This document shows, piece after piece, positions 5,906 through 55,806 of a DNA stretch of 55,806 nt. This DNA comes from Verrucomicrobiota bacterium. GTDB taxonomy: Bacteria; Verrucomicrobiota; Verrucomicrobiia; Verrucomicrobiales; DEV007. The translations under genes and the position numbers were made by a program. Numbering within the stretch: the first letter of the stretch is position 1; each line of letters starts with the position of its first letter. The stretch spans positions 1 through 55,806 of the forward strand of contig DAOUQC010000022.1 of the NCBI GenBank assembly GCA_030625775.1. The letters run 5' to 3'. The notes below the pieces were generated by a model. The model was not told the origin of the DNA and searched no databases. It worked only from the letters and a program-made list of their open reading frames with translations.

Positions 5906-6757
5906 TCAAAGTTGCTGTGGTTTCGGTTGTATCCGGTCACCAATTTTTACATCATCGTTTTCGCTGACTAATTCATTGAGCACTGCTCCACAGATCGAGT
6001 CACGCACATCAACTACCATGGCTGTGCCAATCGGACGGTCAGTGCGCAAAATTTCAAGAGGCATTCCCACACGGGCTCCGCCTTTTCTCCCTACATTCAA
6101 AACAATCAAACCAACTTCCGGGTCCATGCTCACCACCCGTGCGCGTGACACAGTGACGGGAGCTTTTTTTGCTTTTGGCAGACTCAGCCCCAAGGCTACA
6201 TCGCCGGCCCTCAACTCGGACTCCACCGCCATTCTACTTTTTGGATCGTGCTGCCCACCGCCAGTTGACTGAAAGTAACTCACCACGGATTCACTCAGCT
6301 TCAACAATTGCCCGGACAATTTCCGGTTCTGTTCGCGCTCCAGTTCAGTTGTTCTCACCGCTTTGAGCAATCGCTGCTGCAATCCCTTCGGATCCACATT
6401 CAGCACATCTACGCCCAAGGCTTCCATCTTGATCAGCAGATCTTGATAAGCCGCCCGCTCTACTTTAGCTTCACTATTAGCTGCCGCCAGACTCTCAGCG
6501 AGAGCTTTGCGCATCTCATCCAGAGCCGCCGTGCGACCCTTTTCTGCAGCCAACTGCTTTTGGCTGATCGTCAATGCTGTCTTCAGCTCCTGAAGTTCAA
6601 TCGCTGAACTCGAAGCATTCGACGCTTTGCTTTGTGCCACAATAGATTCAGAAGCCAGACATGCACCCAAAACCAACACCACACAGACTAGCACCCTCGC
6701 CGCAGAAGCGGGAGTCGTGGCGCTTTTGCGCATCTGGTTGTTGGAGTTCAGGTTCAT
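5906..6757 (-). CDS. Exported coiled-coil protein of unknown function inside the S10 operon
   Basis: No known family was recognised. The 283-residue product has an N-terminal signal or anchor helix (residues ~18-42, ending near ESIVAQ). A long helical, probably coiled-coil region follows (residues ~50-165, rich in Glu, Lys, Leu and Ala). The C-terminal ~75-residue domain is probably beta-rich (ARVVSMDPEVGLIVLNVGRK, GGARVGMPLEILRTDRPIGT, GDRIQP). This coiled coil plus beta-domain layout resembles MreC-like or envelope scaffold proteins, but that is only a shape comparison. The gene lies between rpsS (24 bp) and rplV (19 bp) on the same strand, so it is presumably co-transcribed with ribosomal genes. 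A later ATG (MRKSATT, 6733) is an alternative start. Confidence 0.85.
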   Translation of the reverse strand: MNLNSNNQMRKSATTPASAARVLVCVVLVLGACLASESIVAQSKASNASSSAIELQELKTALTISQKQLAAEKGRTAALDEMRKALAESLAAANSEAKVERAAYQDLLIKMEALGVDVLNVDPKGLQQRLLKAVRTTELEREQNRKLSGQLLKLSESVVSYFQSTGGGQHDPKSRMAVESELRAGDVALGLSLPKAKKAPVTVSRARVVSMDPEVGLIVLNVGRKGGARVGMPLEILRTDRPIGTAMVVDVRDSICGAVLNELVSENDDVKIGDRIQPKPQQL

Positions 6758-7141: not shown

Positions 7142-7990
7142 TTAACGACGCCCTCCTTTTTTCTTCCGTCTTTCGACAATAAACTTGTTGCTGGCCTTGT
7201 GTTTTTTACGAGTCTTCTGGCCCTTTACATGTCCCCAGGGACTTTTCAAGTGCTGGCGGCCACCACCTGATTTTGATTTACCCTCACCACCACCATTGGG
7301 ATGATCGACCGGATTCATACACATACCGCGCACAGTCGGGCGAATCCCCAGCCAGCGGGTTCTGCCAGCCTTGGCGCTAACCACATTCATGTGCTCATGA
7401 TTTCCTACTACTCCAAGCGTGGCGTAACATTTCAAATTGATCTTGCGCATCTCGCCGGATGGCAGTCTCACAACCGCATATTTCTCTTCTTTACTGGCCA
7501 AAGTAGCCGATTGTCCGGCACTGCGCGCCATCTGGCCACCACGTCCAGGGGTCAATTCAATGTTGTGAATCAAACTACTGATCGGAATTTCCGAAAGAGG
7601 CATTGCATTGCCGGGCTTGAGGGGGCTGCCCTCTCCTGCTTGAATCGAGTTACCCACTTCAAGATTACGCGGAGCCAGAATGTAAGATCTCTGTCCGTCT
7701 GCGTATTCGATCAAAGCGATGCGAGCGGTGCGATTTGGATCGTATTCAATCGCAACCACTTTAGCCGCCCCATCACGGCGAGTCCGTTTGAAATCGATCA
7801 AACGATACTTGCGCTTGTGACCACCCCCGCGATGGCGGCAGGTGATTCGCCCACGGTTATTCCGTCCACCTGATTTTTTCAGTGAACTGGTCAGATTTTT
7901 TTCCGGCTTCGATTTTGTGATTTCCGCAAAATCGGGCAGGAGCTTGTAACGATTCGAAGGCGTTACTGGTCTAAATTTTTTCAACGGCAT
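7142..7990 (-). CDS. rplB: 50S ribosomal protein L2
   Basis: L2 is needed for subunit association and peptidyl-transferase activity. The 282-residue product has the expected length. It shows [20 protein letters not shown] near residue 40, [20 protein letters not shown] in the middle, and the signature [17 protein letters not shown] with the basic C-terminus ([17 protein letters not shown]). Order rplW-rplB-rpsS is canonical. Confidence 0.98.
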
Positions 7991-10172: not shown

Positions 10173-12341
10173 TTATCCGCCGCCGCGCCGCTCTACAATT
10201 TCTTCTACTATTTTCGGAGGCACCTCATCAAAGTGAGAAGGTTTCATTGAAAAATCCGCACGACCGCTTGAGAGGCTGCGCATATCCGTCGAGTAACCGA
10301 ACATCTCCGCCAGTGGTGCTTCCACCTTCACGATGCTATGGCTTCCCTTAGCTTCGATCTCTTGGATTTTCCCGCGACGTCGATTCAAATCCCCGATGAT
10401 ATCACCTTGATATTCATCCGGAGTGCTCACCTCTACTCCCATTATTGGTTCAAGCAAGATCCCTTTTGCATTTTTAAAGCCATCCTTCATCGCAAAGATG
10501 GTCGCCATCTTGAATGCCTGCTCATTTGAGTCCACGTCGTGACTCGACCCGTCGAGCAGTTCGACATGCACGTCCACCATCGGATAACCAGCGATCACCC
10601 CATTGATCATCGATTCTTCGATACCTGAGTAACAGGCATTGATGAATTCTTTTGGAATGGAGCCACTAACCACTTTATTTTCAATCGTCAGGCCTTCTCC
10701 CTGTTTGTTGGGAGCAACGCTCAACACCACATGGCCGTATTGCCCTTTTCCACCTGACTGTTTGATTAACTTGCCCTCGCCGCGAGCCTGCTCCGAAATA
10801 GTTTCACGGTAGGCGATCTGGGGTTTGCCTGAAGCACTCTCCACCCCGAACTCACGCTTCATACGCTCCTGCAGCACCTCAAGGTGCAACTCACCCATAC
10901 CTGAAATAATCGTCTGGCCAGTTTCCTCATCTGTATGAACCGTGAAAGTCGGATCCTCTTCAGACAAGCTCTGCAGCGCTACCGCCATTTTTTCCTGATC
11001 CAAGGTGGTTCTTGGCTCTACCGACATTGAAATCACTGGCTGCGGAAAAGCCGGAGGCTCCAGCATAATCTTAAACCCCTTGTCCGCCAGCGTATCCCCG
11101 GTGCCCACAGTCTTGATCCCCACGATCGCTGCGATGTCCCCTGCGTAGCAGGTCTTGATATCCTTGTGCTCGTCCGACTGGATCTGGATCAAGCGTCCCA
11201 CCCGGCTGGTTTTTCCAGTGCGTGGATTGTAAACCTGATCCCCCTTGGAAATCGCACCCGAATAAACCCGGATAAATACCAGCTTGCCAACAAATTTGTC
11301 ACTCCACAATTTGAAGGCCAAAGCACAGAACTTAGCATTGTCATTCGCTTCGGCCTCAACAATGATCGATTCATCACTCGGATCGTGCCCTTCAGCTGCA
11401 GGAATCTCCAAAGGATTGGGCAAATAATCCACCACTGCATCAAGCAAATACTGAACTCCCTTGTTCTTAAAAGCAGATCCTCCCACCACTGGGATAATCT
11501 TGTTGGCAATCGTCGCCCGGCGCAAAGCCGTTTTGACATCGAGCACGGTGATTTCTTCTTCGTCGAGAAATTTCAATCCGATCTCTTCATCGGCCTCCAC
11601 CAGTGCGGCCATCAATTCTTCGTAGGCAGCCTCGGCAATCAAGCTCTGATCAGCATCGAGATCGACCACCTGATAGGTAGAACCCAGAACATCGTCGTCT
11701 GAATAAATGACCGCCCTCTTGTTGATCACGTCGATTTGGCCGCGCAAATCCTCTTCAGAGCCAATTGGAATGAGAATCGGATGCGCATTCGCACCCAGCT
11801 TTTCCCGCACGTCGCCCACCACTGCATCAAAATCAGCAGCAACACGATCCATTTTGTTCACAAAAACAATGCGCGGAACTCCGTAGGTATCCGCCTGGCG
11901 CCAGACCGTTTCCGACTGCGGCTGAACCCCGGCCACTCCACAGAAAACCACCACCACCCCATCGAGAACGCGCAGTGACCGCTCCACTTCAGCAGTGAAA
12001 TCCACGTGCCCGGGAGTATCGATGATATTCACCCGTTGCTCCTGGTCGGCAAAAGCTTTGTAAACCCCCACTTCGGGAAGCTGCGTCCAACGGCAACTGA
12101 CCGCTGCCGACGTGATCGTAATGCCTCGTTCACGCTCTTGATCCATCCAGTCCGTCGTCGCCGCCCCATCATGAACCTCACCAATGCGATGGATCATGCC
12201 AGTGTAAAACAATACCCGCTCCGTCAGCGTTGTCTTACCCGCGTCAATATGCGCCACAATGCCGATGTTCCGCGTACGTTCCAGAGGAACTTCGCGGTCA
12301 GGCGAATTGGGAGAAATAGGACTGCTCACTTTTTTGGGCAT
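10173..12341 (-). CDS. fusA: Elongation factor G
   Basis: EF-G is the GTPase that drives ribosomal translocation. The 722-residue product has the P-loop AHIDAGKTT (residues ~30-38), the switch II motif [13 protein letters not shown], and domains II-V with [30 protein letters not shown] and MEPIMGVEV-like segments. The C-terminus includes [20 protein letters not shown]. The frame extends 21 bp upstream to a GTG at 12362; I prefer the ATG at 12341 ([10 protein letters not shown]), which leaves a ~20-residue variable leader. It follows rpsG and precedes rpsJ, as in other str operons lacking tuf. Confidence 0.97.
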
Positions 12342-44682: not shown

Positions 44683-45957
44683 CTAACGGATTTCCTCAGC
44701 ACCAAAATACGAGTGCAAAGCTTCGGGCAAACGAATCGATCCGTCGGCTTGTTGACAGGTTTCCAGCAAAGCCACGTAGAGCCGGGGCAAGGCAGTACCT
44801 GAACCGTTCAAGGTATGGCAAAAATGGTTTTTCCCATCCTCATCCTTGAAACGCAACTTCATCCGTCGTGCCTGGTAATCACCAAAACTACTGCAACTCG
44901 AAACTTCGAGGTATTCATTTTGTCCCGGCGCCCAGACTTCGATGTCGTAAGTTTTGGTTGAACTGAATCCCACATCACCGGTGCAGAGCTCGATAATGCG
45001 GTAGTGCAAACCCAGTGTTTGCAAAACCTTCTCCGCTTCGTTGGTAAGTATCTCCAGTTGAGCCAAAGACTGGTTAGGATGCACAACGTTGACCAGCTCG
45101 ACCTTGTCGAACTGGTGCATACGGATCAGCCCACGATTTTCACGACCTGCCGCACCGGCTTCACGACGAAAACAATGAGTAGCCGCAGTGGTCTTGATCG
45201 GAAAATCATCCATCTTCTGAATGGTGTCGCGGTAGAGATTGGTCACCGGCACTTCTGCGGTCGGGATGAGGAAATGGGCATTGTCCTCGATGCCATACAT
45301 GTCGTCTTCAAACTTGGGCAATTGTCCGGTGCCAAACATGCAGTCACGATTGACGACTACCGGCGGATTGACTTCTTCGTAGCCGTGTTCCCGGGTGTGC
45401 AGGTCGAGCAGGAACTGAATGAGTGCACGCTGGAGTCGTGCTCCTGCCCCGGTATAAACCACAAAACCGCTCGAACTGATTTTGGCACCAAGCTCAAAAT
45501 CAAACAGCCCGAGATTCGCTCCCAATGTCAGATGCTCTGCAGCTTCAAAATCATCAAAAGCAGGTTTTTCGCCCCAAGTGCGGATTTCAGGATTGGCTGT
45601 CTCATCATCACCCACCGGGCAGTTTTCGTGCGGCAGGTTAGGGATTTGTAACAGCAACTCACGCTGACGGGCATCCGCCGTTTCAGTGCTTTCACCGAGG
45701 GCTTTGATCTGCTCTCCAATACCACGCACCTTGTTTTCCAACTCGGCAGAATTTTCCCCCTGTGAACGCAATTTGCCTATCTCTTTTGACAGCAGGTTGC
45801 GCTGCTGTTGCAAAACCTGTTTTTCAGTCTCTCCACTGCGGCGTTTCTCGTCACATTCAAGCACTTCGGTGATCAATTCCCAGGCATCACCACCGCGCGC
45901 CTTCAGGCCTTGCTGACAGCGCTCGGGTTCCTCGCGAATTTGGCGGATATCAAGCAT
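44683..45957 (-). CDS. serS: Seryl-tRNA synthetase
   Basis: SerRS charges tRNA-Ser and tRNA-Sec. The 424-residue product has the N-terminal coiled-coil arm (RQIREEPERCQQGLKARGGD, then a heptad-rich ~30-100). The class II catalytic core has motif 2 CFRREAGAAGRENRGLIRMH and motif 3 LNGSGTALPRLYVALLET. Length is typical (~425). It probably forms an operon with tilS. Confidence 0.97.
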   Translation of the reverse strand: MLDIRQIREEPERCQQGLKARGGDAWELITEVLECDEKRRSGETEKQVLQQQRNLLSKEIGKLRSQGENSAELENKVRGIGEQIKALGESTETADARQRELLLQIPNLPHENCPVGDDETANPEIRTWGEKPAFDDFEAAEHLTLGANLGLFDFELGAKISSSGFVVYTGAGARLQRALIQFLLDLHTREHGYEEVNPPVVVNRDCMFGTGQLPKFEDDMYGIEDNAHFLIPTAEVPVTNLYRDTIQKMDDFPIKTTAATHCFRREAGAAGRENRGLIRMHQFDKVELVNVVHPNQSLAQLEILTNEAEKVLQTLGLHYRIIELCTGDVGFSSTKTYDIEVWAPGQNEYLEVSSCSSFGDYQARRMKLRFKDEDGKNHFCHTLNGSGTALPRLYVALLETCQQADGSIRLPEALHSYFGAEEIR

Positions 45958-46007
45958 GACGAGAGATTAGCGCAGTGCGCGAAAAGGGCAAGTAGCCGCG
46001 GTTCATT

Positions 46008-46901
46008 TCAGAGCAGCAGCAACAAAGGACTGAGCAAAACAGCATCTGCCAGAACCCGGGACAGGGAAGGCGCAAAACGCTCTTGGAAAAAATGCAGCAA
46101 GGTCAAAAAAAGTGAGCTGATGAAAATGACCAGATAAATGAAAAAATGACCCCCAAAAAAGCAGAATGCCACACTGACAATACAAAGCCCCAAACCTAAA
46201 AACATCAGATCCCGGTCCAATTGCAACCACCAGCCGGAGGCCGCGGTGGGATCGTTGATTTGGTCCGAATGCCTTTCCCGGGCAGCGATAACCAGACAAT
46301 TAAAAATGCACAGTCCGGCAAAAAGCAGAATGGATGGCAGAACCTCCAGGGGATGGGAAAGCAACCCGTGACGCAACACGTCGACGCCCAGAGCCGTGCC
46401 TATGGCAAAAACAAAACCACAGGCAAATTCCTTGGCGCGCAGGGGTTTGAATTGTGGCACGAGGCGAACAAAAGCAGTGAAATAGAGCGCAACCACCCCG
46501 CATAACCCGAGACCCGCAAGCAATAGATCTAACGGCAGCTCTTTCAAGGAAATGATGGCTGCGATCAATACGATGAGGCCGAGTAGCACCAGGAAAACTT
46601 TCTGGTGCACATGGACAAAACGATGCCGTGTGGTGGCCCGATCCCAATCTTTCTGGCGAAGACCATCCAGTAATCGGTCGGCAATGTATATCGCCCACAC
46701 GGTCAAAAACAGCACTGTTGCAGCGGGCCAGGCAAATGGAGAACCGAAGGTTCGGGAAAAAGCAAAAAACCAAAGCACGGCTACGATTGGAGCATCCAGA
46801 CTGAGCAGATTGGGGTAACTCCACCATGAATATCGCAGCGAATGCTCGCTACTCACAGCAGCATTGCCCTCAATCTGAGCTGTAATATAGGTAGATTTCA
46901 T
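46008..46901 (-). CDS. UbiA-like membrane prenyltransferase-family protein
   Basis: The 297-residue product is a multi-pass membrane protein with eight to nine predicted helices. The motif IYIADRLLDGLRQKDW (residues ~72-87) has the D-x-x-x-D spacing of the first Asp-rich site of UbiA transferases. LRAKEFACGFVFAIGTALGV is a UbiA-like loop, and RERHSDQINDPTA sits where the second acidic site would be. Match is partial, so function is uncertain. It is divergent from the nickel SOD and follows no operon partner. Confidence 0.55.
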   Translation of the reverse strand: MKSTYITAQIEGNAAVSSEHSLRYSWWSYPNLLSLDAPIVAVLWFFAFSRTFGSPFAWPAATVLFLTVWAIYIADRLLDGLRQKDWDRATTRHRFVHVHQKVFLVLLGLIVLIAAIISLKELPLDLLLAGLGLCGVVALYFTAFVRLVPQFKPLRAKEFACGFVFAIGTALGVDVLRHGLLSHPLEVLPSILLFAGLCIFNCLVIAARERHSDQINDPTAASGWWLQLDRDLMFLGLGLCIVSVAFCFFGGHFFIYLVIFISSLFLTLLHFFQERFAPSLSRVLADAVLLSPLLLLL

Positions 46902-46981
46902 TCAAGGAAGGGGCAAGCCACTCTATACTTCACAAAAGAAATTTTCCAGGAAGACCAAATCAAATGTGAAATACCCCCACA

Positions 46982-47010
46982 TTGACACCATTCCGGGGCC
47001 CTACTATACT
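46982..47010 (+). promoter_or_regulatory. Near-consensus sigma70 promoter of the Ni-SOD gene
   Basis: TTGACA and TATACT lie exactly 17 bp apart. Transcription would start near 47017, about 95 bp upstream of the sodN ATG. No other promoter in this window matches consensus as well, suggesting strong expression. Confidence 0.8.
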
Positions 47011-47111
47011 TTGCTTGAATCACCAATTTACTCATTTTTGGTGGCTCAACTTTAACCTGCTGGACTGCTATGCAGCCTATTTACTCACATTCAACTACAG
47101 AAAAATATACC

Positions 47112-47567
47112 ATGATCAAAACACTTCTCATTGCTTTCATCGCTGTTACCAGCGCGGGATTTATTGCCTCGCCAGCGGTGCAGGCTCATTGCGAAATTCC
47201 TTGTGGCATCTATGACGATCACGCCCGTGTTCAATCCATGCTCGAAGATGCAGATACAATCATTAAATCGGCAAAGCTGATTGGCGAACTGGCTGGCAAG
47301 TCAGATGCCCAGTCACAAAACCAACTGGTGCGTTGGGTGATGAATAAAGAAAAACATGCTCAAAGCATCATCGATACTATCAGCAATTATTTCCTTACCC
47401 AGCGGGTAAAATCAGATCAATCCGATTATGCTGAACGCCTGAAAAAACACCACACGGTGATCGTCGCCGCTATGAAGGCCAAGCAAAATGCCGATGGCGA
47501 ATTTGCCAAAAACCTGAAAGCAAGTATCGAAGCTTTGGCTACATATTACCCTGAGCACAAACATTAA
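47112..47567 (+). CDS. sodN: Exported nickel superoxide dismutase
   Basis: NiSOD dismutates superoxide with a nickel held by the N-terminal hook. The product is 151 residues: a 25-residue Sec signal peptide (MIKTLLIAFIAVTSAGFIAS, then PAVQA) and a mature form starting HCEIPCGIYDDHARVQ. The hook residues His1, Cys2 and Cys6 and Tyr9 are all present; position 3 is Glu where Asp is usual. Mature length ~126 fits the family (~117 plus a short tail). Cleavage after AVQA would expose His1, as nickel binding requires. No sodX-type maturation protease gene is visible nearby. Strong promoter and strong terminator flank it. Confidence 0.9.
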   Translation: MIKTLLIAFIAVTSAGFIASPAVQAHCEIPCGIYDDHARVQSMLEDADTIIKSAKLIGELAGKSDAQSQNQLVRWVMNKEKHAQSIIDTISNYFLTQRVKSDQSDYAERLKKHHTVIVAAMKAKQNADGEFAKNLKASIEALATYYPEHKH

Positions 47568-47636
47568 GGCCCACACATAGTGCCTCAACGCCATTCATTT
47601 ACATCAATGAGTGGCTCAGAAAAATATTCCCGTAAG

Positions 47637-47677
47637 GTCAGGGCTAGCAAAATGTCTCGCTAGCCCTGACTTTTTTT
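47637..47677 (+). terminator. Strong intrinsic terminator of sodN
   Basis: A perfect 12 bp stem (GTCAGGGCTAGC / GCTAGCCCTGAC) with a 10 nt loop is followed by seven T, about 70 bp after the sodN stop. The following 47678-47917 holds no gene I can see. Confidence 0.92.
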
Positions 47678-47917
47678 GCCCTGACCTGATGTTCTGTTGG
47701 AGCATCTCTCAAATAAAGTCAGCGGCCTGCCACCCCTTGAACTCTCTCAAAATTCCGGGTCGATGCTGCGTTGTAAGCTCTCGGCAAGCGAGCCGACAGA
47801 CCAAAGACCAAAGGTTCTCCTTGATGCGGGAGACCCGGGCTTTTTTTCATCTACACCCCGATTTGTACCCTTTGGGTTGATGTATGACTCTCAAAAGTGC
47901 GCGATTATCAGCTCACT

Positions 47918-48205
47918 ATGACAGAGAGCAGCGCCACAAAAGAGTCTGAGCCTCAAAAAATCGAAGATGTTCCTTATCTAACGATGGGGGGTGCTGCAAT
48001 TTATCAGATCCAGGTTCGAGGTAATCTCGACGAAAGTTGGTCAGAAAAATTGGGTGGCCTGAAACTCGAAACCACCATGGAGACAGCTACGACAGTTCTC
48101 ACTGGCTCTCTGCCTGACCAGGCTGCTTTGTCCGGCATTTTAAACACACTTTATGATTTGCAGCTTCCGGTTATTTCCGTGGAGCATTTGCCTCAAGCAA
48201 AATAA
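47918..48205 (+). CDS. Small conserved protein of unknown function
   Basis: The 95-residue product starts MTESSATKESEPQKIEDV and has a compact C-terminal block: AIYQIQVRGNLDESWSEKLGG, TATTVLTGSLPDQAALSGIL and NTLYDLQLPVISVEHLP. I recall small proteins with this 'Y.I.V.G.LD..WS' and 'L.G.L.DQAALSG.L' pattern in scattered bacteria, but know of no assigned function. A GTG seven codons upstream is an alternative start. It precedes the next gene by 65 bp on the same strand. Confidence 0.6.
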   Translation: MTESSATKESEPQKIEDVPYLTMGGAAIYQIQVRGNLDESWSEKLGGLKLETTMETATTVLTGSLPDQAALSGILNTLYDLQLPVISVEHLPQAK

Positions 48206-48270
48206 CTGAAAAAGAACTCATTTTAGGGGAAACCCAAGGCATGTATCTCTAAATTATCACCTGAATTATC

Positions 48271-48720
48271 ATGATGGCTGTTACAACACAAAATTCCATA
48301 GGAACCATCGACCCTGTGCTGGCCGAAATAGAGACCTCTATAGCTGGATATCCACTGGACTTACGTAAGGTTTATGACCAGAGCACTGCCGATTTGCACT
48401 GGTCGAAAGATATCTTCGGTAACGAGGCTTCAGATTTTACAGGGCTCTGCAATAAGGAACTGGCATTGGCCCACCGCTTGATGTTTGCATCGGCTTTTGC
48501 CGCCAGTGCTGCAGGTTTGCCGGGTCGCGAACTGGAAAAGGTGCCGGTCGCTTCAACCAGGATCCTGGACATCGTTACCGGAGCGGGCCTGCCGCCACGA
48601 GAGTTTCTTCGTCATTACGGTGAGTATGGCAATCAATTCACCTGGAAACTGCTGAAACTGACCGGGAGAATCAGTGACAGCAATGACCAGTCAATCCCTG
48701 ACCCAGTGGAAGGGCTGTGA
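48271..48720 (+). CDS. Small protein of unknown function
   Basis: No family was recognised. The 149-residue product has a hydrophobic, Ala-rich middle (LALAHRLMFASAFAASAAGL), then ILDIVTGAGLPPREFLRHYG and a C-terminus QFTWKLLKLTGRISDSND. No signal peptide or membrane segment is clear. It is followed by a strong hairpin and then by a 3' stub of a second copy. It may be co-transcribed with the 95-residue protein upstream. Confidence 0.6.
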   Translation: MMAVTTQNSIGTIDPVLAEIETSIAGYPLDLRKVYDQSTADLHWSKDIFGNEASDFTGLCNKELALAHRLMFASAFAASAAGLPGRELEKVPVASTRILDIVTGAGLPPREFLRHYGEYGNQFTWKLLKLTGRISDSNDQSIPDPVEGL

Positions 48721-48725
48721 TACCG

Positions 48726-48759
48726 CCGGTGCTTCGAAACTTATGTTTCGAAGCATCGG
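48726..48759 (+). terminator. Terminator-like hairpin after the 149-residue gene
   Basis: CCGGTGCTTCGAAA pairs with TTTCGAAGCATCGG (14 bp with one G·U), loop of 6 nt, followed by TTTCCTTTC. A longer related hairpin follows the stub copy at 48921-48990. Confidence 0.65.
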
Positions 48760-48831
48760 TTTCCTTTCAACAAACAAAATAAAATTTAACTAAATAGAAG
48801 CAACTTTCATCACAACATGAAGCGATGACTA

Positions 48832-48918
48832 CAATTCACCTGGAAACTGCTGAAGCTGCTCGGGAGAATCAGCGGAAGCAGTGACCAGCCAGCCCTTGAC
48901 CTTGTGAAAGGGGTGTGA
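48832..48918 (+). pseudogene. 3' stub of a paralogue of the 149-residue gene
   Basis: 28 codons ending in TGA encode QFTWKLLKLLGRISGSSDQP-ALDLVKGV, aligned without gaps to the last 28 codons of the gene ending at 48720. The differences spread over the stretch suggest an older paralogue whose 5' part has been lost, not a fresh duplication. The following hairpin is also duplicated but longer. Confidence 0.7.
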
Positions 48919-49037
48919 TGCCGCCGCCGTCTCGAAATATTTTCATTTATGAAAAAGTTCCCTGAAGGGAAGTTTCGGGACGTCGGTTTCCTCTCCAACA
49001 GCTTATAAAAATTCAATCAAGAATAACAATAATTTTT

Positions 49038-49564
49038 TCAACCCAATTCATCAAGAATGATCAGGTCATGCTTGTCCACCTAAGTAAAGAAGCGCTTCAG
49101 CTCATGAGCTTCACGCATCTCCAACATGTGGGTCACTAGGGCCGTGGCACCCCAGAAGCGCACTCACTTTCACTGGGCACAAGCAGCAAAGCCAAGCGCT
49201 GTCCCGATGTGTGGGTTTTGCCGGTGCCCGAGTTGCCGATCATCAATACGTTTTCCCTGGCGGCAAGATACTCACCGCTGATCAGTTCCTTTATCATGGT
49301 TTCGTTGATCGATGGTTGCGACTGGAACTTGAAGTTTTCCAAGGTCTTGATCACAGGGAACCTCGCGCTTTTGATGCACCGCTGGGCCGCCCGTGGTACA
49401 CGCTCGATCAACTCCCGTTCCGTCAAGCGCAACAGGAAGTCCTCGTAATCACTTCCTTCTGCAGCGCAAGATGCAGCAGCAGCTTCCCACTCACGCCGGA
49501 TTGTCGGTAGCCGGAGCTTTTCCAAATGATGCTTGAGTAACAAGCGGTTGCTTTCCACACTCAT
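49038..49564 (-). pseudogene. istB-like ATPase remnant of an IS21-family element
   Basis: Residues 1-~120 of an IstB ATPase are intact (MSVESNRLLLKHHLEKLRLP through NVLMIGNSGTGKTHTSG, with the Walker A GNSGTGKT). After GTGKTH the frame shifts; another frame continues as HIGTALGFAACAQ, VRFWGATALVTHMLEMREAH and DKHDLIILDELG with in-frame stops, and ends there. The rest of IstB is missing. IstB normally helps the IS21 transposase; this copy is dead. Confidence 0.85.
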
Positions 49565-49960
49565 ACCACCGCCTCCTTTCTATCTACCAGCAGGCTTGTA
49601 TAATCGCCGGGATCGGGGCAACTCACATTGACCACCTTGACATGTTCACGACCATCGAGCCGGAACACAGCGGCTTCCCGGTTCTCTCCATAAAGATACT
49701 GCTCGATGAGTTCCTTGCGTGGACAACCGGTTTCCAAGGCTGTAACCACTGCTCTTTTCAATCGCAACAAGCTCTCTGCTCCTCCAATAAACGAAACACT
49801 CCGATATACTCTTTAACGCCTTCATTACCATGGTCAGCTTCCAGACGATGGCGCAGCACGCGAAAGCATTCAGGTAGTTTCCAGTCTTCAGCCCACCTTG
49901 AACACGGCCAAGGCAATTGAATCTGCACCTACAAACAAGCACTCTGCTCAACCCGCGCAG
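49561..49960 (-). pseudogene. istA C-terminal remnant of an IS21-family element
   Basis: LPECFRVLRHRLEADHGNEG and VKEYIGVFRLLEEQ are found in one frame, then SLLRLKRAVVTALETGCPRK and SCPDPGDYTSLLVDRKEAVV in another, so a frameshift splits it. The transposase catalytic domain is absent. Its stop overlaps the istB start as ATGA, the standard IS21 arrangement. The left end of the original element is not seen; the right end stops near 49960, where composition turns AT-rich. Confidence 0.75.
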
Positions 49961-50164
49961 GTAGTCATTTTTAATTGTCTTCAGGGGTCTCTTCTAGTTG
50001 TAGTTACACACTGCTTTTTTGCCGTATAAATCCAAAGAAGCCTGTCTCTCTATGCATAAATTGCTATATAATTGCATAAGCGAATAAAAGCCTCTGGACT
50101 ATTTAACTAAACAACTTATAGAACCACGAAACCGCCTAATTAAGCAGAAAAGCACAATATTTGC
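49961..50164. other. AT-rich intergenic stretch before the sensory cassette
   Basis: No gene is visible. The DNA is markedly AT-rich, with many A/T runs (around 50041-50160), and marks the boundary between IS21 remains and the Roadblock cassette. No promoter was clear enough to list. Confidence 0.4.
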
Positions 50165-50806
50165 GTGGTCACATCTTTATTTATAAATTTACAGATTTGT
50201 GATGTAGTGGAAGAACCAAGACCAGCACAATTTCAGGGAGACGCTGATTATGAACAGACTTCATCACTTGCTAACAGTGATGAGGTAATGGCCTATGGAG
50301 TTGATATAGAAAGCAGCTCTTATTACCAGAAAGAGGCAGCGCGTGCCACTCGTATCGAGGGGGTAATCGAACGTGATAAAACTGAAAAAAAATCAGGGAG
50401 AAGTGAGTTTTCAGCTCTTATAACTTCATTATTGGAGGAATTCCTGGATCTAGGCAAACTCGACGGCCTTACAATAGTCACTGATGAGGGCTTGGTGGTC
50501 GCTCAAACTTGTAGTTTTAATGATGCCGATGTGATGGCTGCGATTGGTTCGGTTTTTGAATATGTGGCTCAGAGGGCGGAAGATGCAAAGATCGTTTCGA
50601 TAGTGGATGAGATGGTCATAAAGGGGTTTGATGGAGAGTTAGCCGTCGTGAGATATTTTCCAAACTTGGAGCATCGGTTTTTCCTAATGGCGTATGCTCG
50701 CCAATCCTGTGCCTATCGCAAAGTAACAAATTTGGTTTTAAAGCGTTGTGGGCAACTGCTGGAAAAGCGTTTTGGAACTAATAATGCGCCTGAGCTGGAT
50801 AGCTAA
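50165..50806 (+). CDS. Roadblock/LC7-domain protein, longer form
   Basis: Roadblock/LC7 (MglB-like) proteins bind and control small Ras-type GTPases or act in other signalling. In this product (213 residues from GTG 50165) the domain occupies ~80-205: ALITSLLEEFLDLGKLDGLT, IVTDEGLVVAQTC, AAIGSVFEYVAQRAEDAKIV and RYFPNLEHRFFLMAYARQSC. The first ~75 residues are polar and could be a linker. The ATG at 50288 (MAYGVDIESS) is an alternative start that still keeps the domain. It leads a same-strand group of five genes. Confidence 0.7.
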   Translation: MVTSLFINLQICDVVEEPRPAQFQGDADYEQTSSLANSDEVMAYGVDIESSSYYQKEAARATRIEGVIERDKTEKKSGRSEFSALITSLLEEFLDLGKLDGLTIVTDEGLVVAQTCSFNDADVMAAIGSVFEYVAQRAEDAKIVSIVDEMVIKGFDGELAVVRYFPNLEHRFFLMAYARQSCAYRKVTNLVLKRCGQLLEKRFGTNNAPELDS

Positions 50807-50837
50807 GGCACCAAAAAAAAACAAAAAAAACAAAAAA

Positions 50838-51212
50838 ATGAATAACATGTCAAAAGCTGATGCACTGAAAACAGTCTTAAATACATTATCCGCCTCCAGT
50901 GGGGATATTGAGGCATCCGCCGTTGTTTCCTCAGATGGCTTGATGATCGCCTCAAATTTTCCTGCTGGCCTTGACGAAGACCGCGTGGCAGCAATGACTG
51001 CAGCCCTTTTGTCAATGGGAGAGCGCGCTTCAGAAGAGCTGAGTCGCGGCGATCTTGAGCAAATGTTCGTAAAGGGAGCTAATGGAAACCTTGTTCTGTG
51101 TCAGGCTGGAGTTGAATCCGTACTGGTAACCTTAACAATGAAAAGTGCTAAGCTGGGCTTGGTATTTCTTGATATGAAGCGTTCAGCAGAAGAAATCGCA
51201 AGAATTGTCTAA
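50838..51212 (+). CDS. Roadblock/LC7-domain (MglB-like) protein
   Basis: The 124-residue product is a single Roadblock/LC7 domain: ADALKTVLNTLSASSGDIEA, SAVVSSDGLMIASNFPAGLD, AAMTAALLSMGERASEELSR and KSAKLGLVFLDMKRSAEEIA. This is close to the MglB consensus, a dimeric GTPase-activating protein for MglA. No MglA or other GTPase is encoded in the window. A poly-A leader precedes the ATG at 50838, which I choose over in-frame upstream starts. Confidence 0.8.
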   Translation: MNNMSKADALKTVLNTLSASSGDIEASAVVSSDGLMIASNFPAGLDEDRVAAMTAALLSMGERASEELSRGDLEQMFVKGANGNLVLCQAGVESVLVTLTMKSAKLGLVFLDMKRSAEEIARIV

Positions 51213-51246
51213 GCTAACCTATTTTTTGGAAGTGGGATTGTCAACA

Positions 51247-51858
51247 ATGAAAAGCATTGAAACTACAAGTACTCGTATTGCTGCAGTGACAAAGGAGGAG
51301 TGGAAGCCTTTTGTTGAGCGAGCTATTAGAGTAAGTGGATTTACTGATGAAGATGGTCAAATCATCAAAGAGGCTGCTCCTCATCTCAGACCCAAGCTTG
51401 ATGAGATTTCCAATCTCTTATATGAATCGATGCTGAACTATGAGCCTGTTGCAACTCTGATAGAAGCTAAAGACGAAGGAGTTGCATTCCGCACCAAGCT
51501 GAAAGCTTGGCTTGGAGCATTGTTAAGTGGAAAATATGGAGATAAGTTCTGGTCATGGCAATGGGTTTTCGGCTTGATTTTGCTCAAAAACAAGGTGGAC
51601 ACTGCTTACTTTTCCATAGCTCATAGCAGATTAAGCGTGATCATCATAAAAACAATATTTGAGGTGTTTAGTGAAGATTCAGGGAGACGTGTTGCAACTG
51701 CGTATCTCAACGCAATGAGCGGTGTCTCCTCGGTAATTTGCAAATCATATCAAAGGGAATATCAGGCAGCCATAGCCGATGCAGGGCTAAATGCCGCAAT
51801 AATAAACCGGGTTATCAAGCTGAGCGTTGACAACAAAATCAAAAACATCATAAAATAA
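51247..51858 (+). CDS. Protoglobin-fold protein lacking the proximal histidine
   Basis: The 203-residue product aligns with protoglobins and globin-coupled sensors: FTDEDGQIIKEAAPHLRPKL at the N-terminus, NLLYESMLNYEPVATLIE, and LSGKYGDKFWSWQWVFGL then ILLKNKVDTAYFSIAHSRLS. The last block aligns with IG-x-x-H-x-x-x-GV at spacing, and the invariant proximal His falls on Leu ~112. Haem binding is therefore doubtful, as in the non-haem globin domain of RsbR-type stressosome proteins. No transducer domain follows; the C-terminus is helical (~165-203). The ATG at 51247 is chosen over TTG 51205. Confidence 0.72.
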   Translation: MKSIETTSTRIAAVTKEEWKPFVERAIRVSGFTDEDGQIIKEAAPHLRPKLDEISNLLYESMLNYEPVATLIEAKDEGVAFRTKLKAWLGALLSGKYGDKFWSWQWVFGLILLKNKVDTAYFSIAHSRLSVIIIKTIFEVFSEDSGRRVATAYLNAMSGVSSVICKSYQREYQAAIADAGLNAAIINRVIKLSVDNKIKNIIK

Positions 51859-51873
51859 AAAGGGAACATATAT

Positions 51874-52299
51874 ATGAGTGAATATACAATATTAGAGTGG
51901 GCGGACTCGTTAAAAACCGGTAACCGTGCAATTGATAATCAGCATAAATATTTGATTGATCTTATCAATGAATTAGCGACTTGCTTAGAAGCAGGCAAGG
52001 CTGAACAAGAGCTTAAAAAAATAGCCAACTTACTGTATCACTTTACCGAATGGCATTTTTGTTTAGAAGAAAAGTGCATGGAGTCAAAAAACTGCCCTCT
52101 AGCTGCTGAGAATAAAGATGCACATGGTCAGTTTATCGCAGCCGTCACCTCATACCAGGCAAAAATAAGAGAAGCTAGCACTCAAAACTTTCAGGATATT
52201 GGCACCGAAATGCATAAGGTGCTTATTTCATGGTTTGTAAACCACATTCAAAAAATAGATATTCCAAATCTATCAGAGTGCAGTGCAGAGGATGCTTAA
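51874..52299 (+). CDS. Bacteriohemerythrin-like protein with one ligand substituted
   Basis: The 141-residue product has the single-domain bacteriohemerythrin fold, usually an O2-binding di-iron protein. Ligands seen are His24 (AIDNQHKYLI), His61 and Glu65 (TEWHFCLEEKCM), His84 (NKDAHGQF), His124 (WFVNHIQ) and Asp129 (KID). The second-helix pair normally reads H-x-x-x-H; here it is N80-x-x-x-H84, so one iron ligand is Asn. A six-ligand site could still bind iron but O2 binding may differ. It starts 15 bp after the protoglobin gene. Confidence 0.85.
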   Translation: MSEYTILEWADSLKTGNRAIDNQHKYLIDLINELATCLEAGKAEQELKKIANLLYHFTEWHFCLEEKCMESKNCPLAAENKDAHGQFIAAVTSYQAKIREASTQNFQDIGTEMHKVLISWFVNHIQKIDIPNLSECSAEDA

Positions 52300-52325
52300 T
52301 CTTAAATTTTAAACAAAAAGTAAAT

Positions 52326-53285
52326 ATGAAAAACAAAAAGTATTTAATAACTTTAGGAGCATTGCTTTTGAGCTTTTCTGCTGGAAATTTGATAGCTGGA
52401 CCAATCGATACTAAAGCTGTCGTTGAAGAAGGGCCTGATCCTTTTGCTAAAGTATTGCGACCGGTCAGCAACCCTACATTGTTTGACCTGGCATTGCCGA
52501 GAACGACCATTCATCCTGTATTTATGACCCAGTCCATATCGGACAAAATCAGCACAATTTTAGGAGATGTTCCGGCAGGGGGGGATTTTCAATTATATGC
52601 ATTGCAGCTGGAGTATGCTTTCAATGAGCGTTTGTCTTTTGTGGCAACCAAGGATGGATACATTGATTTCAATCCGGACTCCACGTTGAGCACTGACGAC
52701 GGGTGGGCCAATTTGGCGGCTGGCCTTAAGTATGCGGTATTGTATCAACCAGAGCACCAACATGTGCTCAGTGTGTCCGTAGTGGCCGAAGCTCCGACGG
52801 GAAATACGGGGGTTTTCCAAGGCACGGGAAACGGTGCTTTGAATTTGATCTTATCGGATGTGAAATTGTATGGTCGCTGGCAGTTGGCGGGAGCGATAGG
52901 AGCGCATATCCCCTTCGACAATGATGCAGAATCAACGACGGGCTTTGCCAGTGCTCATGTAAGTTATTGGCTGACTGAATGGTTAGCCCCTCTGGTGGAG
53001 GTGAATTGGTATCGTGTGCTGGATTCAGGTGATGGCGGCAATCGCTTTGGCAATCAATTGGGAGGCGCGTTGCCTGCTGTGGCTGAGTTTGAAGGGGGGG
53101 ATCTAATCAATTTCGGCTCTGCAAATGCGGGAACCAATCGCGATATTGTTACTCTCGCTGCTGGCTTTCGTGTTCAGGTAGCAAAAAACGTCAGTCTGGG
53201 GGCGGCCTATGAGATTCCACTGACTTCGAGCAAAGAAAATCTAATGGATAATAGAGTCACGATAGATCTGGTGTGGAACTTCTAG
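52326..53285 (+). CDS. Outer-membrane beta-barrel protein
   Basis: The 319-residue product has a signal peptide (MKNKKYLITLGALLLSFSAG, cut near NLIAG). Amphipathic strands follow (LQLEYAFNERLSFVATKDGY, GLKYAVLYQPEHQHVLSVSV, VAAGFRVQVAKNVSLGAAYE-like) and it ends in Phe (TIDLVWNF), the usual C-terminal signature for barrel insertion. Specific transport or other function is unknown. It is the last gene of the Roadblock cassette and is followed by two terminator hairpins. Confidence 0.75.
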   Translation: MKNKKYLITLGALLLSFSAGNLIAGPIDTKAVVEEGPDPFAKVLRPVSNPTLFDLALPRTTIHPVFMTQSISDKISTILGDVPAGGDFQLYALQLEYAFNERLSFVATKDGYIDFNPDSTLSTDDGWANLAAGLKYAVLYQPEHQHVLSVSVVAEAPTGNTGVFQGTGNGALNLILSDVKLYGRWQLAGAIGAHIPFDNDAESTTGFASAHVSYWLTEWLAPLVEVNWYRVLDSGDGGNRFGNQLGGALPAVAEFEGGDLINFGSANAGTNRDIVTLAAGFRVQVAKNVSLGAAYEIPLTSSKENLMDNRVTIDLVWNF

Positions 53286-53308
53286 GCCTTGGTTAAAAGC
53301 CTAGTTTT
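53282..53308 (+). terminator. First hairpin at the end of the cassette
   Basis: CTAGGC/GCCTAG with an 11 nt loop followed by TTTT; it overlaps the stop codon of the barrel gene. Confidence 0.5.
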
Positions 53309-53315
53309 GTTGATT

Positions 53316-53349
53316 CGCCTGTTCAGGAAATTTCCTGAACAGGCGTTTT
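53316..53349 (+). terminator. Strong hairpin terminator of the cassette
   Basis: CGCCTGTTCAGGAAA and TTTCCTGAACAGGCG form a perfect 15 bp palindrome (stem 12 bp with an AAATTT loop) followed by TTTT. It clearly separates the cassette from the FabZ-like gene. Confidence 0.85.
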
Positions 53350-53414
53350 GCTTGTCTAACAGGCTGAAAAAAATATTTGCTTTTCTGATAATATAAAGCG
53401 GGGTAAATCTGGCA

Positions 53415-53900
53415 ATGAACGAAACTCTGACACAGGCACTTGAGGCTCTCCCGCATGGGGCGGGGTTTCGTTTTGTGGATGAACTGACGGATTGGCAGCC
53501 AGGAGTCTCGGCGAGTGGTTTGTACTTGGTCAAAGGATCAGAGGCTTTTCTTGAAGCACATTTTCCAGGCGACCCGATGATGCCCGGGGTTATTTTGATA
53601 GAGGCCATCGCCCAGTTGGCAGGCATCGCTGCGCAAAGTGATGCGCCGGAAACTTCCACCTTTGCCGATTTGCGTCTCGCTGCGCTACGTCAGGCTAAAA
53701 TTTCAGGGGCAGCACGCCCCGGCGATCATTTGCTGATTGAGGCCCGAATCACTGCGAAAATGGGAGGGCTCATTCAGGCCGAGGGCTGTATCAGTATTGC
53801 CGCAGAGGGAGCCGAAGATCCGCTACTTATAGCTAAAGCCCAGATAACCTTGAGTGGAGCAGATCTCACCAATTCCGCCAGTCAGGAAAGTCCTGATTGA
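53415..53900 (+). CDS. FabZ-like 3-hydroxyacyl dehydratase (hotdog fold)
   Basis: The 161-residue product shows the FabZ/FabA-type pattern: LPHGAGFRFVDELTDW (catalytic His in PHG) and HFPGDPMMPGVILIEAIAQL (catalytic Glu in IEAIAQLAG). Family members dehydrate 3-hydroxyacyl-ACP; genomes often have several divergent copies, some in aryl-polyene or other lipid clusters. The standard fatty-acid neighbours (lpx genes) are absent, so this may be a secondary dehydratase. Confidence 0.82.
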   Translation: MNETLTQALEALPHGAGFRFVDELTDWQPGVSASGLYLVKGSEAFLEAHFPGDPMMPGVILIEAIAQLAGIAAQSDAPETSTFADLRLAALRQAKISGAARPGDHLLIEARITAKMGGLIQAEGCISIAAEGAEDPLLIAKAQITLSGADLTNSASQESPD

Positions 53901-53936
53901 TTTTAAATTTGTCTGCAGGGTTCAGTTCCAGGGAAA

Positions 53937-54959
53937 CTATTCCAAGGCATCCTGAAGGCGACGGATGAGTGACTTGATGCGTCGTGCGGAACGCACGTTG
54001 TAAAATACCAGGATGGGCATGGGAGATTCTACTGCGGCAAATTCAATCGTTGCCAATCCAAGCAAGCCCTGCAACCCACGCTGGCGGATGTATATGGCGC
54101 CAATATCTTCGATGCAAATTTCCCGGGAATCTTCCAGGATCAACCCGTGAATCACCTCCACTTGTTTCGGGGTGATAAAGTACTGATACCGGGTGCGGCG
54201 GTATTGCGCTTGAATGTAAATGATCAAAGCGATGGATAATCCTGCGAACAAGATCCAGTCAAATTGTTCACGCAACCAGATACCCAGGCCCAGACTGAGC
54301 ACTATCAGGAACAGGCTTTTTGGAAAGCTCAGTAGCGAAGGCCGTCCGGAATAGAGGATGGTCGTTGAGTCGCGGGGTGGCCCGCTCTGTATAGAAGTAA
54401 GAGCTTCTTCGTCTTCTGATAGATCTTCTTGCTCATCAGCTTCATCCAGGTATTCGATGTCATCAGCCTCATCATTTGGCAAGTTCGGCAGAGTGGGGTC
54501 ACCCTCACAATTTTCCATGCATTCGTCAGCATAATCACCGTCTTCATCTTCATCTTCATCCGACAAGAGCTCACACCCGTCCTCTTCATCCCCTTCGATA
54601 ATCGTTTCCTCCTGATCGTAATCTTCATCATCGCCCTCATGCCCGATCGAGCTATCCGCTTCTGTTTCGGCAGAAGCCCCTTCCGCATCACTATCATCGG
54701 GGACGTCCCAATCTGTAGCTTCAATAGCGAGCGGCAGTGTGGACTCGGCAGAATCCCCCAACTGCCGGGATGCTGCCGAAATCAGGTGTTCGTCTTCCCA
54801 ATCGAGAACCACACAAATTTTTTCACAGCTGGCGGCCCCTATCCGCAGACAATAATCCTCGTATTCGGCCTGACCTCGCTCAATTTCATTCAGCAAGTCA
54901 TCCAGAGAAAACGGGCCGCGTTTCCGTCCATGATTGAAGACATAGTAGCGATCATTCAT
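53937..54959 (-). CDS. GYF_2-like/acidic-linker/bacterial PH-domain membrane protein
   Basis: The 340-residue product has three parts. Residues ~1-55 match GYF_2-like N-termini (YYVFNHGRKRGPFSLDDLLN). A ~110-residue very acidic Asp/Glu linker follows (~84-190; DEDEDEDGDYADE). The C-terminus has two TM helices (~214-253) and a YdbT-type PH domain (RTRYQYFITPKQVEVIHGLI, DIGAIYIRQRGLQGLLGLAT). No function is known. It overlaps the upstream YbjN-like gene by 8 bp. Confidence 0.8.
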   Translation of the reverse strand: MNDRYYVFNHGRKRGPFSLDDLLNEIERGQAEYEDYCLRIGAASCEKICVVLDWEDEHLISAASRQLGDSAESTLPLAIEATDWDVPDDSDAEGASAETEADSSIGHEGDDEDYDQEETIIEGDEEDGCELLSDEDEDEDGDYADECMENCEGDPTLPNLPNDEADDIEYLDEADEQEDLSEDEEALTSIQSGPPRDSTTILYSGRPSLLSFPKSLFLIVLSLGLGIWLREQFDWILFAGLSIALIIYIQAQYRRTRYQYFITPKQVEVIHGLILEDSREICIEDIGAIYIRQRGLQGLLGLATIEFAAVESPMPILVFYNVRSARRIKSLIRRLQDALE

Positions 54960-55470
54960 TTTTCTCCTGCGGCTGGTCGGGCAGGCTTTCTATGTCCGTC
55001 TCCATCAACAGGGGAATGTTCAAAGCGGCAAGTTCTCCATCCGTGCAGGTTTCAGCCTCGAATAGAATATCAATCATAGGAGACAATCTGTCCATCTCGC
55101 TGATCGTGGCATGAACCATGCCGGCGATGATTTCTGCATCCCCCTTGCCCTTAGGGAAAAGATTGCTAGCCCGGAAGACGATTCGTGCGTCATCCCAGAA
55201 CATTTCGAAGTTTCCAATAGTCAGTATCTGGTTGGTGCGCAAGATGAGTTCGGCAAGGCGCTCACGCAAGGCCGCGGAATAGGTCATTTTTTCTGATTCG
55301 GATACTATGCTGATACCTCCAATTTCCGCAAATACTTGGACGTGCAGATTGATCTTCAGGTGCTGACCTTCAAATCCAGCGAGGATGACTTCATGATCCT
55401 CCACCTCGGTGTAAGTCCAGCCTTCCGAATCAAAAGTTTGCTTAACTGTATCAAATAGCGTTGATGCCAT
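54952..55470 (-). CDS. YbjN-like protein
   Basis: The 172-residue product from ATG 55470 (MASTLFDTVKQTFDSEGWTY) resembles YbjN-type proteins, which have a type III secretion chaperone-like fold: VILAGFEGQHLKINLHVQVF, ELILRTNQILTIGNFEMFWD and IAGMVHATISEMDRLSPMID. The C-terminus is acidic. In E. coli YbjN affects stress and motility genes, but function here is unknown. Its end overlaps the GYF/PH gene, suggesting an operon. Confidence 0.7.
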   Translation of the reverse strand: MASTLFDTVKQTFDSEGWTYTEVEDHEVILAGFEGQHLKINLHVQVFAEIGGISIVSESEKMTYSAALRERLAELILRTNQILTIGNFEMFWDDARIVFRASNLFPKGKGDAEIIAGMVHATISEMDRLSPMIDILFEAETCTDGELAALNIPLLMETDIESLPDQPQEKNE

Positions 55471-55506
55471 AGGGTAGCTTGGCGGATTGTAGGCGAAGGT
55501 CAATAA

Positions 55507-55806
55507 TTACCCTCCAGCTTTGTTTGAGAAACTACCCAGAATCAGCCTGAAACCGAATAATGCCAGCAGAGCAGGAAACCAGATTGAGTAAATCGCAGCT
55601 TTGCTTGGTTTGACAAGAATGGCAAGCGAAGGGTCGGTGGGCTTAACATAACAGATCACTTCATCCCCGGCAGAATAGAGTTTTTGCCAGGCCTTGATTT
55701 TTCTTTGATCGCGTTTGGCGATGGGCAGAAGCTTGACCTTGGAGGAAATATACTTTTTGCCTTCAACTGTGTAGCGATAGTGAACCTCCAGGCGGTAGTT
55801 CATATC
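55507..55806 (-). CDS. DUF3592-like protein, 5' end outside the window
   Basis: The visible ~99 codons include YRLEVHYRYTVEGKKYISSK, SAGDEVICYVKPTDPSLAIL and a TM helix (IYSIWFPALLALFGFRLIL), the layout of the second half of DUF3592 proteins. The usual N-terminal TM helix is missing, so the gene probably starts beyond the window edge, although an ATG at 55803 exists. It precedes the YbjN-like gene by 36 bp. Confidence 0.6.
   Translation of the reverse strand, partial: DMNYRLEVHYRYTVEGKKYISSKVKLLPIAKRDQRKIKAWQKLYSAGDEVICYVKPTDPSLAILVKPSKAAIYSIWFPALLALFGFRLILGSFSNKAGG

Follow-up and report, generated by a model that had tools for sequence, protein, structure and literature searches.

An apparently undescribed and mobile gene cassette of Verrucomicrobiota that combines Roadblock proteins with a protoglobin and a hemerythrin and probably responds to oxygen

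The DNA analysed here, referred to as the window, comprises positions 1 to 55,806 of contig DAOUQC010000022.1 of a Verrucomicrobiota bacterium whose genome (G000) is 96% complete. At 50165–53285 the window carries a cassette of five intact genes on the forward strand, encoding a long Roadblock/LC7 protein (RBL), a short MglB-like Roadblock protein (RBS), a protoglobin-fold protein (PGB), a bacteriohemerythrin (HR) and an outer-membrane barrel-like protein (OMP), with intergenic gaps of 15–35 nt (Table 1). An initial annotation, made from the sequence alone, had described such a run of five same-strand genes closed by a strong palindromic terminator; both were recovered, as all five frames are open and the terminator has a 13-bp stem. 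The AT-richness that it reported was also confirmed. The GC content of the cassette was 0.430, against 0.508 ± 0.017 for window stretches of equal size, and hardly any other 3.3-kb stretch of the window, if any, is richer in AT.

Table 1. Features of the cassette and of its insertion site (positions in the window).
Feature	Position	Strand	Evidence
Long Roadblock/LC7 protein (RBL), ~213 aa	50165..50806	+	PF03259, 22.8–24.4 bits; AlphaFold model
Short MglB-like Roadblock protein (RBS), 124 aa	50838..51212	+	PF03259, 65.3 bits (cut-off 23)
Protoglobin-fold protein (PGB), 203 aa	51247..51858	+	PF11563, 60.6 bits (cut-off 25)
Bacteriohemerythrin (HR), 141 aa	51874..52299	+	NF033749, 96.3 bits (cut-off 84)
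Outer-membrane barrel-like protein (OMP), ~319 aa	52326..53285	+	weak PF13557
Intrinsic terminator closing the cassette	53316..53345	+	13-bp stem with 8 G-C pairs, then TTTTGCTTGT
IS21-family remnant	49136..50020	-	truncated istB at 49136–49564, istA remains, IS end at ~49960–50020
Segment (IS21 remnant and cassette) missing at the corresponding syntenic site in each congener	49014..53444	.	alignments

A Roadblock domain was present in both RBL and RBS, as seen from PF03259 matches and from the fold. The relatives of RBS in the PDB are 7f8m, cvnB5 (3leq) and MglB. The score of RBL was borderline (22.8 bits against a cut-off of 23, and 24.4 bits in the genome search); its AlphaFold model matched the solved Roadblock structures 9jue, 7f8m and MglB (TMt ~0.81), with the domain at residues ~80–203 and a low-confidence N-terminal tail. 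The GTG start codon of RBL at 50165 is uncertain, since no ribosome-binding site is evident and the N-termini are shorter in its relatives. The Pfam and NCBIfam scores, and for RBL the agreement of the fold model, therefore uphold the families that had been assigned to the first four proteins.

Relatives of the cassette were obtained by scanning genome contigs with an RBS profile and by searching related genomes. A scan of the genome collection with the window protoglobin alone gave no relative, as the query is too divergent, and a plasmid search with the window globin gave no match. The RBL–RBS–protoglobin core was found in five other loci, two in a congener (G001, contigs C471 and C26) and three in loci of Verrucomicrobiaceae metagenome-assembled genomes (MAGs; L042, L044 and L057), which agrees with the proposal of a conserved signalling cassette that is not confined to one genome. 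Across these five loci, identity to the window proteins was 48–51% for RBL, 72–79% for RBS and 28–37% for the globin. The order RBL–RBS–protoglobin–hemerythrin was kept in C471, L042, L044 and L057 (28–79% protein identity to the window), where the hemerythrins were 51–54% identical to HR. Because the flanking genes differ between loci, the conserved order is not simple shared synteny.

The comparison further revealed what the window copy lacks. A Ser/Thr kinase gene (Pkinase, PF00069) precedes the core in all four of these loci, and in the three Verrucomicrobiaceae loci the run reads Ser/Thr kinase, RBL, RBS, protoglobin with the proximal His, hemerythrin with a Pro-rich tail and MglA-type GTPase. 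C471 has the same order from the kinase to the hemerythrin without the GTPase. In C26, RBL, RBS and a Leu-bearing protoglobin are followed by a His-bearing protoglobin in the place of the hemerythrin, then by the barrel and a kinase. No MglA-type GTPase was found in G000, G001 or the second congener (G002), although the same profile was positive in five of five control genomes, and the closest kinases in G000 aligned with parts of the cassette kinase, at 36–39% identity at most. The earlier statement that no GTPase, kinase or cyclase is encoded alongside thus holds for the window itself and fails as a general picture, given that the relatives carry a kinase and, outside the genus, an MglA-type GTPase. 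The absence of both from the window is a secondary and not a defining trait. Directly upstream of the C26 copy and on the same strand, two small ORFs without a family match (L039:6239-6676 and 7168-7695, minus strand) are possible extra cassette members; their identification as further Roadblock proteins was not supported.

The two putative oxygen-binding proteins of the window were found to have changed ligand residues, as had been noted in the description of a His-less protoglobin and a variant hemerythrin. In alignments, PGB has Leu112 at the position of the proximal heme-ligating His (F8). Its model (pLDDT 87) gave the sensor globins AfGcHK, GsGCS and HemAT as the top Foldseek structural matches (TMt 0.82–0.86), and PGB is accordingly predicted to be a sensor-globin fold without the usual heme-anchoring His. 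The proximal residue is Leu in the window and in C26, and His in C471, L042, L044 and L057. In an unrooted tree of the three shared proteins the window copy grouped with C26 (100% UFBoot split), and as both have Leu, the heme His was most likely lost once. This grouping and the common His-to-Leu change mean that the heme-less globin was inherited and has been kept next to a sensor that looks functional. The second sensor differs between the two copies, being a hemerythrin in the window and a His-bearing protoglobin in C26. A separate case was observed at L091:5836-8223 (G310, probably Methylacidiphilaceae), where two near-identical short Roadblock–protoglobin pairs stand in tandem; the proximal residue is His in one globin and Asp in the other, so that the heme His was lost here in parallel.

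In HR, Asn80 occupies the position of the first His of the HxxxH motif in DcrH. H24, H61, E65, H84, H124 and D129 are kept, so that the canonical set of five His, one Glu and one Asp is incomplete. Asn80 is invariant in the five of five cassette copies that have a hemerythrin, as are Cys63, Cys68 and Cys74. By standard hemerythrin numbering we take the Asn80 position to be a ligand of the three-His iron, in which case the other iron would keep its ligands. Each cassette copy retains at least one protein whose O2-binding site seems usable.

The hemerythrin and the cassette were closely associated in the order. Bacteriohemerythrin (NF033749) occurred in five of the 240 sampled genomes of the order, which are exactly the five cassette genomes; by exact count, with relatedness ignored, such a coincidence is expected in ~1 in 6 billion draws. 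RBS itself is rare, being present in 2 of 75 genomes of the family and, if a single distant form is counted, in 6 of 387 of the order. Outside the phylum, other partners were seen next to RBS relatives or a Roadblock pair. ODP is a diiron O2-binding protein that acts as a separate sensor partner, and it adjoins them in L045, L058, L064 and L055 (the family was tested for L045 and L055, and L058 and L064 were judged by evident sequence similarity). A protoglobin adjoins RBS relatives in L047, L050 and L056, with a PAS protein also present in L050. Across the loci, the Roadblock part is constant and the O2- or redox-type partner varies. L045, L058 and L064, from Deltaproteobacteria and Victivallales MAGs, moreover share a conserved run of ODP, response regulator (or histidine kinase), RBL and RBS.

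The initial annotation had suggested transfer, next to a dead IS21 element, and this is supported. A truncated IstB (PF01695, E 1.3e-22) and a 52-bp istA-side IS end, 90% identical to that of an istA/istB element in the congener contig G001:C478, were identified; the remnant abuts the cassette, and this sole identifiable IS end lies directly upstream of it. A composite transposon was ruled out, as the window has no second IS copy or end beyond the cassette. Both congeners are syntenic with the window on either side of the site and lack ~4.4 kb there: G002:C193 and G001:C443 match the window up to 48947–49013 and again from 53445–53451, with ~170–380 bp between. At a second empty site, the ~4.0-kb unit from kinase to hemerythrin that is present in G001:C471 is absent from G002:C144, whose matches to L040 stop at 6567 and restart at 10592. 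The two empty sites in the genus demonstrate gain or loss of the block as one unit. With the low GC content and the IS21 remnant also considered, the window's site is most simply read as an insertion in G000; independent loss in the two congeners is possible.

The barrel, which had been counted as a member of the cassette, did not hold this place. OMP scored just below the Phenol_MetA_deg cut-off (21.4 against 22 bits), and its homologues are spread family-wide (22 of 75 genomes); almost all of these genomes lack the cassette, a distribution that rules the barrel out as a core member. In three of the eight loci read, the barrel gene lies next to or divergent from genes for cbb3 oxidase subunits or assembly. 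The barrel is an accessory gene, possibly tied to low-oxygen physiology. One homologue, L104:276-1298 (G002:C144), is broken by a single stop codon, and G002 has no cassette.

Several known systems resemble parts of the cassette. In Group 3 MglA systems of beta- and gamma-Proteobacteria (Wuichet and Sogaard-Andersen 2014, PMC4316618), a DAR-motif GTPase is encoded together with either one MglB-like Roadblock protein or two, as in L044 and L057, and the gamma-proteobacterial loci in this analysis resemble that form. The GTPases of L044 and L057 have the DAR G5 motif and the Lys-less G4 that are reported for Group 2/3 MglA (PMC4316618). The third member of the Group 3 systems is a receiver-like/wHTH protein, whereas a Ser/Thr kinase is found in the verrucomicrobial form, with protoglobin and hemerythrin added; neither the window cassette nor its relatives in Verrucomicrobiota showed a receiver-like/wHTH gene, and globin and hemerythrin go unmentioned in the text of PMC4316618. 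The window copy shares the MglB-like Roadblock protein and lacks the GTPase, which L042, L044 and L057 possess. A 214-aa gamma-proteobacterial protein, considered as an RBL homologue, was unsupported by profile comparison and was left out of the count. The actinobacterial conservon (CvnA-D) is like the fuller verrucomicrobial form in placing a kinase, an MglB-like protein and an MglA-like GTPase in one operon, and Roadblock genes orphaned by GTPase loss have also been described for conservons (PMC4316618). It differs in having a membrane histidine kinase and CvnC, with no Ser/Thr kinase and no separate O2-binding proteins; the cassette proteins had no match to a histidine kinase or CvnC-type domain.

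RsbR of the Bacillus stressosome, a non-heme globin fused to a STAS domain, differs from the cassette in having no Roadblock proteins. It resembles PGB in having a sensor-type globin fold whose F8 His has been replaced and which carries no heme (cited in PMC4476040). HGbRL of Methylacidiphilum infernorum is another likeness, a verrucomicrobial globin physically tied to Roadblock/LC7 and proposed as a sensor (PMC4476040). HGbRL is, however, a single fused heme-binding protein with a globin of the HGbI/Vitreoscilla type, found with a methyltransferase and with no kinase or hemerythrin, whereas the globin and Roadblock proteins of the cassette are separate, unfused genes. The ODP that adjoins Roadblock pairs in Deltaproteobacteria MAGs has a metallo-beta-lactamase fold, not that of hemerythrin, and is not present in the window. 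On the best reading, the cassette has its relatives in conservons and in the Group 3 MglA/MglB systems, and none of the compared systems has its gene set. No published description of Roadblock proteins with a protoglobin and a hemerythrin was found in the open-licence literature, which accords with the earlier inference that this set belongs to no known described system. The system appears to be undescribed and mobile, and it probably responds to oxygen.

We consider it fairly likely, from gene content and residues, that the window cassette represents, in reduced form, a Roadblock signalling system that responds to oxygen or redox state. The fuller form seen in relatives is Ser/Thr kinase–RBL–RBS–protoglobin–hemerythrin–MglA-type small GTPase. 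The oxygen- or redox-binding part of the window copy would be the hemerythrin, and its state would be relayed to the heme-less globin, now a protein–protein adaptor, which would pass it on to RBL and RBS, probably a heterodimer platform. This platform would regulate a partner switch, formed in relatives by the GTPase and the dedicated kinase; in G000, by which both were lost or never received, the switch may be one of its other Ser/Thr kinases. We infer oxygen as the signal, the formation of a complex, the direction of signalling and its output. Some points weigh against this proposal. O2 binding by HR is not assured, as one canonical iron ligand is gone; no downstream partner was found in the 96% complete genome of the window, which has neither such a GTPase nor an orthologous kinase; and the cross-phylum scan used two exact peptide patterns and was non-exhaustive. 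With no kinase or GTPase in the window copy, either the partner is encoded elsewhere or the copy is on its way out.

The latter would make the window copy a decaying remnant, a degenerating and functionless fragment of the full system. This would account for the missing kinase and GTPase, nearby or as orthologues in G000, for the lost heme His, for the adjoining decayed IS21 element and for the longest branches of the tree, chiefly those of the globin (1.16 against 0.48 in C26). We regard it as unlikely, as all five frames are open and divergence among the copies is concentrated at codon position 3, conservation is strong in RBS and at Asn80 and the other ligands of HR, and the His-to-Leu globin also occurs in C26, which retains its kinase. 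It is also rather improbable that the window globin still binds heme through another residue, leaving two parallel O2 sensors as in the His-bearing copies. Unusual ligation exists in globins, as in the closed form of HGbRL (PMC4476040), and the model fold of PGB is intact; RsbR with its F8 His replaced is nevertheless heme-free, as stated in the same paper. Leu at F8 in two related copies likewise speaks against such ligation. That hemerythrin and globin form an O2 or NO store or scavenger with the Roadblock neighbours incidental has little probability, since, although gas transport or scavenging is known for hemerythrins and protoglobins and a Ni-SOD-like gene lies 2.6 kb upstream, the Leu-globins of the window and C26 are unable to ligate heme by the usual His, relatives consistently keep the kinase with the Roadblock pair, and the O2-type protein is exchanged between families as the Roadblock pair stays.

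The reduced signalling cassette may, more tentatively, represent a widespread, undescribed class of split gas-sensing systems, in which the Roadblock pair would be a common socket for interchangeable O2-binding proteins (heme protoglobin, hemerythrin and ODP). The pair would drive a kinase and a small GTPase as outputs, and in one branch the adaptor would be a heme-free globin. Few input signals are known for bacterial Roadblock/small-GTPase systems, and O2-binding proteins that are encoded with a Roadblock pair and swapped among three unrelated folds would supply a concrete, testable one. Such a unit would unite gas sensing with a Ser/Thr kinase and a Ras-like GTPase in a single gene run, and would provide a further case of a globin that keeps its fold and loses its heme for signalling.

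The surroundings of the cassette provided several minor observations. The Ni-SOD-like protein (PF09055, E 3.5e-39; 47070–47567) scored below the NCBIfam sodN cut-off. An Rfam search of 45000–55806 matched no family. On the right flank of the insertion site (53415–53900), a FabZ-like dehydratase, below the NCBIfam FabZ cut-off, is conserved in both congeners. To the left, the sequence at 48625–48729, which holds the 3′ end of a 149-aa gene (48271–48720) and a terminator-like hairpin, is repeated at 48831–48934. The repeat, which had no Rfam match, is present in two or three copies in the congeners (L122 and L123; at most 89% identical), and the second copy in the window still encodes a similar C-terminal peptide.

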